Below are positions 39,103 through 42,647 of a DNA stretch of 42,647 nt, piece after piece. The notes beneath the pieces are model-generated. The model was not told where the DNA came from and did no database searches. It saw nothing but the letters and a program-made list of their open reading frames with translations. The DNA lies in the NCBI GenBank assembly GCA_018664485.1, contig JABJOE010000004.1:1-42647 (forward strand), read 5' to 3'. The position numbers were made by a program, and so were the translations under genes. Position 1 is the first letter of the stretch; each line of letters opens with the position of its first letter. Source of the DNA: Candidatus Uhrbacteria bacterium. GTDB lineage: Bacteria; Patescibacteriota; Patescibacteriia; UBA9934.

Positions 39103-39966
39103 ATGAGAGTTGAAAAAGATAGAAAAAAACCAGAGCGCTCAACGATGCGCGCTCATTCAATGGCTATTCTCGGTGGCCTTGTTTTTATTTTGGGATTAAT
39201 GGTTTGGGTTTGGTATAGCGCGTACGTTCTGCACTCCTATGGCTCTTTCATGCGAACGACTTTGAAAGTCGTACCTCTCCCGGCAGCGTATGTTGTAGAT
39301 GAGGTTGTGTGGATGCGCGATTTGGCTGAACTTGCTTGGCTTGCGGAGACATCAGGATTGAGTGATCCGTATGATCGTGCGTATGAGACGTCGATTCGTC
39401 GTGCTTATATTCGCGGACTAGCAGATGAAGTTGGAGTTAGCGTCGACGATGAAGAATTGGATTCTTTTGTAGATGAAGTAGATGTTGAGATGCTGGAATC
39501 ACTTGGTTGGTCAAAACGTGATTACCAGAGATATTTGGCTAAGCCTCTAATTTTGGAGCAGACACTTGAAGATTCTTTGTATAATCTGACAGAATATCAG
39601 GATGGGGCATATGACGATATTTTGGCTTTGCAGTCTCAGTATGAAGATATTGGTATCGCTTTTCCTGATCTTGCATTGCAGTATTCGCAAGGTGCGAGCG
39701 CTGACGTGAGTGGTTGGCTTGGGTATCTTGAAGAGGACGAGTTACCCGCAGGATATAATGCTGTGTGGGATCTTGATGTAGGAGATACGGTGATTATTGA
39801 GCTTGAGCGCGAATTTGCACTTGTCAGAGTATATGATGTTACTTTCCTTGAGGTGAATAGGTTGAGCGTTGCTATACAGGAGATTTTGGTCAACAAACAG
39901 CCATTAAGTGAGATTCTAGACGATTATATCGGTGAAAATAGCCTATTTATAAGATTAGTAAGGTGA
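39103..39966 (+). CDS. Degenerate parvulin/SurA-like membrane-anchored protein
   Basis: Signal anchor; SurA_N-like helices; ADVSGWLGYLEEDELPAGYNAVWDLDVGDTVIIELEREFALVRVYDV resembles parvulin core. Confidence 0.6.
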   Translation: MRVEKDRKKPERSTMRAHSMAILGGLVFILGLMVWVWYSAYVLHSYGSFMRTTLKVVPLPAAYVVDEVVWMRDLAELAWLAETSGLSDPYDRAYETSIRRAYIRGLADEVGVSVDDEELDSFVDEVDVEMLESLGWSKRDYQRYLAKPLILEQTLEDSLYNLTEYQDGAYDDILALQSQYEDIGIAFPDLALQYSQGASADVSGWLGYLEEDELPAGYNAVWDLDVGDTVIIELEREFALVRVYDVTFLEVNRLSVAIQEILVNKQPLSEILDDYIGENSLFIRLVR

Positions 39967-39999
39967 GTTAGTTTTTAGGGTTCTGTCCCGTAGCTCCAC

Positions 40000-40027
40000 A
40001 AAAACACCAGTTTTCTGGTGTTTTTGC
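40000..40027 (+). terminator. Intrinsic terminator ending the mur/division segment
   Basis: AAAAACACCAGTTTTCTGGTGTTTTT. Confidence 0.85.
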
Positions 40028-40045
40028 ATTTATACTACCTATTTT

Positions 40046-40379
40046 CTATTTAACGGAGGGTTTTGACATAAATTACTTCCGAGGACATTCAGGGTTAATA
40101 TCCAGCAAGAATAATCTAATCGCAGAACTTTTGCTGTCTTTTCCCTAAACGTAGGGTTTATTCAATTAAAAGCACCTGAGGCTTGTTAAAGGATTTTCGG
40201 TATAAATAATGAATAACAAAGCCGCCTCCGTTGTATCTGCTTAATAATAACAACGGACGCCCGGTTTTGTCGTTATTTATGACGAATATATTCCTTTGAT
40301 AAACGAAGCGCTTTTTACTTGCAGAAACCCGTAGTCCCCTTGACAAAAGAGTGATTTTCTGCTATTCTGCGATGTTCGA
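40046..40379 (+). repeat. Spacer copy A: modules M1-M2, conserved hairpin, promoter
   Basis: M1 CTATTTAACGGAGGGTTTTGAC...; M2 CCTAAACGTAGGGTTTATTC...GAGGCTTGTTA..TAACAAAGCCGCCTC; hairpin TCCGTTGT(40227-40234)/ACAACGGA(40250-40257). Confidence 0.75.
40340..40368 (+). promoter_or_regulatory. Strong sigma70-type promoter upstream of lipoprotein gene 1
   Basis: TTGACA (40340-40345), 17-nt spacer, TATTCT (40363-40368). Confidence 0.75.
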
Positions 40380-40548
40380 ATGTGGCTGAAAAAGTGCCAA
40401 CGAGCAACAGTTTAAAACCTGGGTAGGATTTAGTTCCTTCCCCAAAACCCCCGGCAGGCATTTGCCGGCCAAAATACGGGATGGCAATTTAGCATCCTAA
40501 ACGATCCGCCCACGGGCACAACCAGCCCCTAGGGCTACCGGAGACGAC

Positions 40549-41436
40549 ATGAACGCAACCCTGAAGACCCTGATCGGCCTGAGCCTGATCGGCCTGAGCC
40601 TGGTGGCCTGTAGCCCCCACGGCGACAATGACGACACCCTCGACACCGGCACCTCCGACGATGATGGTGAGCTGTCGAGCGCCGGCGAGGGCGACGATGG
40701 CGACGACGGTGGCGACACCGACGACACCGACGAGCCCGAGGTCGATGCGGACGGCGACGGCTTCACCGCCGACGAAGACTGCGACGACAGCGATGCTAGC
40801 ACCTACCCCGGCGCCCCCGAGCTCTGTGACGGCCTCGACAACGACTGCGATGACGTGGTCGACGAAGATGCCATCAACGACTCGACCTGGTACCGCGATA
40901 GTGATGGCGATGGGTACGGTGATCCGTCCATCTCGACCAGCGCCTGCGATGTCCCGAGCGGTTTCGTCGGCAACGGCGACGACTGCGACGACACCGACGC
41001 CAGTGCATACGACGACTGCACCAGTACGGACACCTGCACCATCGACATGGAGTGGGAGCCCGAAGGTGGCGCCAAGGACCTTCTCTCGCTCAGCTACGAG
41101 CTGGACTGCGATAGCAGCTACGAGGACTGGGATGCGACCGTCGCGGCCACCTCCAGCAGCTCGATTGCAGGCAGCTTCAGCCGTGAGATGAGCGAGGGCC
41201 AAGTCTGCATGTTGCGGATGAACGCCACGTCTCAGCTCGAGACCGAGAGCTACCGCGTCCGCTACGGCTGCGAGAGCACTTCGGGGTCCGAGTCCGGCGA
41301 CATCAACCAGGGTACCTGGAGTGTGACCGTCGACTGCGGAACGCCCATGGTCCAGACCATCAGCGTCAACAGCAAGGACAGCGGCACCGTCGACGGCTGC
41401 GAGACCGAAGTCATCCCGTTGGTTCTGGCCTTCTAG
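40549..41436 (+). CDS. Lipoprotein with MopE-type putative metal-binding repeats
   Basis: GGAGAC RBS; LSLIGLSLVAC lipobox; DADGDGFTADEDCDDSDASTYPGAPELCDGLDNDCDDVVDEDA and a second DSDGDGYGDP...GDDCDDTDASAY unit. Confidence 0.88.
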   Translation: MNATLKTLIGLSLIGLSLVACSPHGDNDDTLDTGTSDDDGELSSAGEGDDGDDGGDTDDTDEPEVDADGDGFTADEDCDDSDASTYPGAPELCDGLDNDCDDVVDEDAINDSTWYRDSDGDGYGDPSISTSACDVPSGFVGNGDDCDDTDASAYDDCTSTDTCTIDMEWEPEGGAKDLLSLSYELDCDSSYEDWDATVAATSSSSIAGSFSREMSEGQVCMLRMNATSQLETESYRVRYGCESTSGSESGDINQGTWSVTVDCGTPMVQTISVNSKDSGTVDGCETEVIPLVLAF

Positions 41437-41568
41437 CCTGAGCCTTCTCCCGTGATAGGGGCCCGACAGAGTATGCCTTCTGGCTGCTCGACTGGGTCCC
41501 TACATTTGCATCTAGATTATATTAGCTTCTTTATTCAATGCGCTTTTATGGCGTTTTTTGTCTTTTCT

Positions 41569-41896
41569 ATCTAACGTAGGGTTATTTAATAAAAAAGCTT
41601 CAGAGGCTTGTTAAAGGTTATTTGGTAGAAATAATGAGTAACAAAACTGCCTCATTTCCTATCTAACAGAGGGTTTTAGCAAATAAATTGCTTCCGAGGA
41701 CGTTTAGGGCTAGATCCGGCAAGAATAGCCTGATCGCAAAATCGCCTCCGTTGTTACCAAAAAAGATACAACGGATGCCCGGTTTTGCAGGCTATGATGA
41801 CGGATTTGTCCCTAGATACCGCAGGCGCAATTTACTTTATAAAACCCGTAGCACCCTTGACAAAAGCCTCTTTTTCTGCTATTATTCGGTGTTCGT
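41569..41896 (+). repeat. Spacer copy B: modules M2-M1 (order swapped), conserved hairpin, promoter
   Basis: M2 CTATCTAACGTAGGGTTATTT...GAGGCTTGTTA..TAACAAAACTGCCTC; M1 CTATCTAACAGAGGGTTTTAGC...; hairpin TCCGTTGT(41747-41754)/ACAACGGA(41768-41775). Confidence 0.75.
41857..41885 (+). promoter_or_regulatory. Strong sigma70-type promoter upstream of lipoprotein gene 2
   Basis: TTGACA (41857-41862), 17-nt spacer, TATTAT (41880-41885); flanks AAACCCGTAG..CCCTTGACAAAAG and CTGCTATT..GTTCG shared with copy A. Confidence 0.78.
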
Positions 41897-42028: not shown

Positions 42029-42647
42029 ATGACGCGCTTCCCGACCCTGACCACCCTTCTGGCCCTTGCGGTCGTCACTCTCAACACTGGCTGCTTCGAC
42101 GACGTCGAGCAGAAGATCTGCAAGGAGTATGACAGCTTCACCGCCGATCAGCAGGTTCTCCTGGACATGGCCGGAGTGGAGTCCGGCGAGTCCGCTTGCA
42201 TCGTCTATCACACCGACACTGAGTGCAACTACGTCTACGTGGTCGGCGAGATCGACGACGGAGGCTGGTACGGCGATAACGCCGACGAGTGCACCGGTGA
42301 GGACGAGCCGGAGGAGCCCACCGACGACGACAGCGACGGCTTCGACTCCGACGAGGACTGCGACGACGACGACGCGACCATCAACCCGGATGCAGAAGAG
42401 GTCTGCGACGGTGTCGACAATGACTGCGATGGCACTGTCGACGGCGAAGACGCCACCGATGCCGAGGTGTTCTACACCGACAGCGACGGCGACGGCTACT
42501 GCAGCACCGAGTTCGAGACGGTTTGTTCCGGAGACGAGGCTTCGACCTCCGTTTCCGAGACCGACTGTGACATCGACGGCGACGGCGACTTCGACGGCGA
42601 CGACGAGGACTGCGACGACGACGACGCAGACATCGATCTGACCTGTG
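42029..42647 (+). CDS. Lipoprotein with MopE-type putative metal-binding repeats (3' truncated by window end)
   Basis: Read by eye from ATG 42029, absent from ORF track: MTRFPTLTTLLALAVVTLNTGCFDDVEQKICKEYD...DSDGFDSDEDCDDDDATINPDAEEVCDGVDNDCDGTVDGEDA...; GGAGAC RBS. Confidence 0.88.
   Translation, partial: MTRFPTLTTLLALAVVTLNTGCFDDVEQKICKEYDSFTADQQVLLDMAGVESGESACIVYHTDTECNYVYVVGEIDDGGWYGDNADECTGEDEPEEPTDDDSDGFDSDEDCDDDDATINPDAEEVCDGVDNDCDGTVDGEDATDAEVFYTDSDGDGYCSTEFETVCSGDEASTSVSETDCDIDGDGDFDGDDEDCDDDDADIDLTC

Follow-up and report, generated by a model that had tools for sequence, protein, structure and literature searches.

At one end of a contig from a small bacterial genome, two intergenic spacers, each ahead of a GC-rich gene, hold the same two sequence modules in opposite order. 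What kind of element this is, and how the order came to differ, is the question addressed here. The window analysed is one whole contig of 42,647 bp, belonging to a genome of 0.98 Mb in 10 contigs whose size and gene content suggest a host of the Patescibacteria/CPR type. Base composition is about 44% G+C, with the exception of the two genes at the contig end (62–64% G+C).

The first of these genes (40549–41436, plus strand) is lipoprotein-like and carries a MopE metal-binding motif (Pfam PF11617, E = 7.9e-12); with 64% G+C and a GC3 of 85%, it is compositionally foreign. The second (42029–42646, plus strand) has the same motif (PF11617, E = 2.2e-10) and is cut by the contig end. As the contig stops inside this gene (42647), the assembly gap may conceal another repeat copy downstream of it. 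Each gene has one repeat copy, A or B, ahead of it, together with a strong consensus promoter, TTGACA-17-TATTCT at 40340–40368 for the first gene and TTGACA-17-TATTAT at 41857–41885 for the second, both on the plus strand. The repeat of copy A starts at the end of the predicted intrinsic terminator (39999–40026, plus strand) of the upstream gene 39103–39966. Both this genome and its relatives have many more orphan genes of unusual composition set among core genes.

Two modules in permuted order

A sequence-only reading of the window had described two spacer modules, M1 and M2, whose order is permuted between the copies, and reading the sequence and its repeats directly bears this out. Copy A consists of M1 (40041–40129) followed by M2 (approximately 40138–40228), and copy B of M2 (41561–41653) followed by M1 (approximately 41655–41748), all on the plus strand. 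Like modules match strongly (z = 23.6 for M1 and 19.3 for M2 between the copies, with none of 500 dinucleotide shuffles as good in either case). The proposed resemblance of M1 to M2 is not due to chance either, since M1 of copy B aligns with M2 of the same copy at z = 9.8, M1 of copy A with M2 of copy B at z = 9.6, and M2 of copy A with M1 of copy B at z = 6.4 (0/500 shuffles each). The only weak cross-comparison is that within copy A (z = 2.3, equalled in 24 of 500 shuffles). Judged by these alignments, M1 and M2 are homologous.

Both copies share, as had been noted, a hairpin formed by TCCGTTGT and ACAACGGA and followed by GCCCGGTTTTG, with loops that differ (15 nt in A, 13 nt in B). Conservation is not limited to the roughly 55 bp nearest the promoter: copy A and a further copy upstream of rnpB are homologous over about 280 bp. 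This rnpB copy also contains two module-like arms, and in a tree of the ten such arms of the genome its first arm groups with M1 of copies A and B (support 96/98), while its second groups with M2 of both copies in a separate clade (100/98). The arm order of copy A is therefore shared with the rnpB copy, and copy B has the reverse.

The modules are arms of one palindrome

The sequence downstream of the hairpin proved to be an imperfect reverse complement of the module, so that module, hairpin and tail together make up one palindrome. A pattern search for the post-hairpin tail also matched the inner portion of M2 on the opposite strand. The suggestion of a structured element thus stands, while the proposed unit of about 85–95 bp that duplicates and shuffles does not: each module is one arm of a palindrome twice that size. 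A single imperfect palindrome of about 190 bp exists in two subfamilies, I and II, with M2 as the left arm of the first and M1 as the left arm of the second. In order, the element comprises a left arm (GGGTTT...), an apex of TCCGTTGT and ACAACGGA with a variable loop, a right arm (...AAACCC) and GTAG. The common hairpin is the apex, and the right arm continues to AAACCCGTAG, which lies 5 nt before the -35 of the next promoter. Right arms differ in step with left arms, one type of tail following M2 and another following M1.

In both A and B, the left arm of one subfamily stands alone ahead of an entire palindrome of the other; the promoter-proximal unit is always the complete one, and the upstream unit is reduced to its left arm. 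In copy A, M1 is the lone arm of subfamily II and M2 opens a complete subfamily I palindrome at 40154–40330 (plus strand), whose right arm extends to AAACCC (inverted-repeat z = 8.8, covariance model score 194 bits) and whose apex hairpin, with its 15-nt loop, folds at 40227–40257. In copy B, M2 is the lone arm of subfamily I, and a complete subfamily II palindrome occupies 41671–41847 (plus strand; inverted-repeat z = 11.0, 187 bits) with its apex, around a 13-nt loop, at 41747–41775. The repeat reading, the left-arm model and the tree all assign the two lone arms in this way.

Folded as DNA, whole elements are more stable than all of 200 shuffles in copy A (z = -5.3 over 40146–40340), copy B (z = -5.6 over 41660–41858), the rnpB copy (z = -7.5) and a copy on contig C10 (z = -9.0). 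M1 and M2 folded separately as RNA give z values of only 0.1 to -1.8, because the pairing partner of each is the tail. The C10 copy (locus L028, 10512–10708, minus strand) is among the most divergent in sequence, yet it has the strongest palindrome, and its ends have changed in step to AGAGTGAGTTC and GAACTCACTCT. The palindrome upstream of ftsH has decayed (fold z = -0.8). Arm-to-arm alignment beats all 200 shuffles in seven of seven complete copies (z = 3.7–11.6).

Distribution of the repeat

A covariance model run over the genome found seven complete copies (67–194 bits). Besides A and B, three precede rnpB (C6), ftsH (C7:129017) and rpsL (C7:82061), one lies between ftsA and ftsZ (C7:8053), and the last, on C10, follows an odd gene and faces a convergent one. 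A model of the left arm alone recovered ten arms, namely those of the seven complete copies and three lone arms, which occur at A, B and the rnpB copy; each of the lone arms immediately precedes a complete element belonging to the other subfamily. Contig C1 carries a right arm on its own, accompanied by a promoter. A weak left-arm match at C1:464 (E = 0.05) failed confirmation.

The covariance model gave no convincing match in 115 related genomes. Comparison of the copies with viral contigs, of copy A with plasmids and of copy B with phages yielded no match, and an Rfam search of the palindrome found nothing relevant. The exact pattern of the 3' side of the hairpin occurs in 17 stretches of named genomes, 11 of them in Psychrobacter; the other six are about what we estimate that chance would give. 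Left arms within the genome are 40–78% identical. All copies are accordingly old, and no recent movement can be demonstrated.

Paired changes between the arms

In an alignment of the seven copies, 26 of 47 modelled pairs are altered on both sides, a number reached in none of 500 shuffles, and 90.5% of the cells pair. The covariation score is 0.518, compared with 0.264 +/- 0.027 in shuffles (0/500), and sliding the partner by one to three columns lowers pairing to 30–49%. RNAalifold counts covariation in 22 of 67. As this alignment was fitted to the structure, its numbers lean towards the structure; the arm-to-arm alignments described above are independent of it. Joint change of the arms may reflect either selection or template switching from one arm to the other.

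Covariation, a strong hairpin and a 4-nt bulge in the left arm that recurs in most copies are what might be expected of a structured RNA of about 190 nt, such as a leader, a riboswitch-like element or a small RNA. We regard this as the least probable of the readings weighed here. The element lies upstream of the -35 and therefore outside the leader, it stands behind a terminator at A, ftsZ and C10, and it lacks an Rfam counterpart. Mismatches between the arms have no clear strand bias (28 G.T versus 23 A.C); selection on a single RNA strand is thus not apparent, which favours a palindrome at the DNA level.

Placement between terminators and promoters

The element is intergenic and non-coding, and is bounded by a terminator on one side and a promoter on the other. 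At A, B, rnpB and ftsH its left side follows directly on the hairpin of the gene before it and opens with TTGCATCTAGAT or a variant of that motif. This boundary motif reads TTGCATTTATAC in copy A (40024–40035, plus strand; compare GTGCATCTAGAT at the rnpB copy) and TTGCATCTAGAT itself in copy B (41506–41517, plus strand), where it is found just past the hairpin behind the gene 40549–41436. On the right, the GTAG tag occupies 40331–40334 in copy A, within CCCGTAG, and 41848–41851 in copy B, both on the plus strand and both 5 nt before the -35. The distance from the CGTAG-like tag to TTGAC is 5, 5, 4, 5 and 5 nt at A, B, rnpB, ftsH and rpsL, and 5 nt at the lone right arm on C1. The ftsZ copy has no clear -35 at this distance. 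Orientation towards the downstream gene is the same at A, B, rnpB, ftsH, rpsL and ftsZ; beyond the C10 copy there is no gene oriented the same way.

The first search of the relatives matched the promoter part alone and not the palindrome. In 20 of 20 relative loci read, the TTGAC -35 of rpsL is at the same place and the element is absent; the TTGACA of rnpB is likewise present without the element in several relatives, and ftsH sites in relatives lack it too. Since relatives keep these promoters without the element, the rpsL and rnpB promoters are native, and the element appears to have been added. A CATAG-N5-TTGAC match in L029 was discounted, being the terminal part of a coding region. The placements at rnpB, rpsL and ftsH are independent events; the promoters at A, B and C1 are alike and may not represent independent ones.

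Fixed spacing at six sites, a single orientation at six and paired changes that keep the arms complementary would suit an upstream regulatory module. The palindrome would then control the promoter next to it, whether as a dyad, a cruciform or a protein-binding platform, and would do so for core genes (rnpB, rpsL, ftsH and ftsZ) and for the recently gained MopE genes alike. This is possible, although we consider it doubtful: in relatives the same rpsL and rnpB promoters work with no such element beside them, the C10 copy has no similarly oriented gene downstream, no clear -35 stands at the usual distance from the ftsZ copy, and the ftsH palindrome has decayed.

Two palindromes of other kinds were seen at comparable sites in relatives. 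L104 (G010) carries an unrelated 196-bp palindromic element with ends CTGGGGTCAGGTCGTTGAT, located 22 nt before the rpsL -35 (z = 15.7). L115 (G012) carries an unrelated palindrome of about 61 bp, located 6 nt before the rnpB -35 and behind a GC-rich foreign gene and its terminator.

Relation to gene cassettes

A different arrangement would be integron-like, with the palindrome as an attC-like site at the 3' end of a cassette composed of a TTGACA promoter, a foreign gene and a terminator, and with crossover before TT. Imperfect pairing, extrahelical bases in the form of the 4-nt bulge that recurs on the left, and a terminal loop that varies are attC-like features, and the palindrome does stand behind compositionally odd genes at B, rnpB, ftsH and C10. 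The run of copy A, gene, copy B and gene resembles an array, and the order trpS-[promoter-gene-palindrome]-TTGACA-rnpB fits insertion before TT. We nonetheless set attC identity aside as very unlikely. The linked recombinase that recombination sites would suggest is missing: the sole PF00589 tyrosine recombinase of the genome, on another contig, is Xer-like, scoring 139.5 against the integrase_gron cut-off of 265 and passing XerA_Arch. The attC R'/R'' pair GTTRRRY/RYYYAAC is absent at the right end, which reads CGTAG-N5-TTGAC. Copies A and ftsZ sit behind native genes, so the palindrome occurs without cassette genes too, and many odd genes here, as well as those seen in relatives, have no such palindrome. 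Nor does a palindrome generally accompany foreign-gene insertion, as the regions upstream of rpsL, rnpB and ftsH in relatives indicate.

A probable mobile-type repeat

The palindromes probably represent a lineage-specific family of fold-back intergenic repeats of about 190 bp, best described as MITE/ERIC-like; both their mobility and their function are inferred. They are short, non-coding and multi-copy (seven complete, three lone left arms and one lone right arm), they consist of inverted repeats, and they occupy unrelated intergenic loci (rnpB, rpsL, ftsH, ftsZ and the MopE genes). That relatives have the rpsL and rnpB promoters without the element fits insertion in this lineage.

The composite copies could have arisen in two steps. 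A transposition-like event would place a copy after the terminator of the upstream gene and before the -35 of the next promoter, and a second element would later land on the promoter side of the older one. The older element would then lose its right arm through a palindrome-associated deletion near the apex. The lone arms do stop near the apex at positions that differ among them, a pattern that hairpin-associated deletions would be expected to leave. With the subfamilies arriving in opposite order at A and B, such a history would give the permuted modules. Sequential insertion and loss of one arm is the simplest account of the permutation and replaces the shuffling of modules first proposed.

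Complete copies have CGnAG as their left flank and CGTAG as their right flank. Both flanks read CGTAG in copy A and the rnpB copy, while elsewhere left and right differ; as the motif recurs at all sites in much the same form, the flanks are probably not simple target-site duplications. An enzyme able to move the element was not found in searches that covered PF00589 (Xer-like only) and PF01797 (Y1_Tnp, none). The constant register of 4–5 nt to the -35 and the single orientation are unusual for a passive MITE. Placement in one direction just upstream of the -35 of essential genes could point to a mobile element that the transcription machinery guides to promoters, or to a shared module that ties foreign genes to the control of rpsL, rnpB and ftsH, but either idea is tentative.

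Comparison with known repeats

Mobile repeats of small size and palindromic form are well documented in proteobacteria and pneumococcus. No paper came up in a full-text literature search for MITEs together with the Candidate Phyla Radiation. The closest likeness is to the enterobacterial intergenic palindromes ERIC/IRU (127 bp) and YPAL/RU-2 (about 168 bp), which are also short, non-coding and multi-copy, form a long stem-loop and have no dedicated transposase known (PMC2229807). The likeness is one of kind only, however, and the present family differs in its two subfamilies, half-plus-whole composites, mere seven complete copies and fixed -35 register. Correia/NEMIS elements of Neisseria and prokaryotic MITEs are similarly small inverted-repeat elements, often immediately upstream of genes (PMC10969869). 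Correia elements, however, supply promoters themselves, and their 24-bp TIRs are accompanied by TSDs (PMC10969869), whereas here the promoter is native where this can be checked (rpsL and rnpB) and no clean TSD was seen. The GTAG tag of the palindrome recalls REPs, which are 20–40 bp long, have GTAG at one end and are mobilised by RAYT (IS200/IS605-type) enzymes (PMC3733652). RAYT/REP identity was rejected on the length of the element and the absence of a Y1 transposase from the genome.

This is a real, structured and lineage-specific repeat family, and its constant spacing to the -35 most deserves attention. With copies in fixed register to native promoters, the family would allow a simple test of promoter-guided insertion, or of whether a highly reduced genome has co-opted a repeat for control.

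Among the odd-composition genes, two large orphans, in L025 (10920–12377, minus strand) and L027 (5332–6933, plus strand; without a match in Pfam or NCBIfam), resemble each other at the C-terminus (TVRHxGDG...), which suggests a paralogous family.
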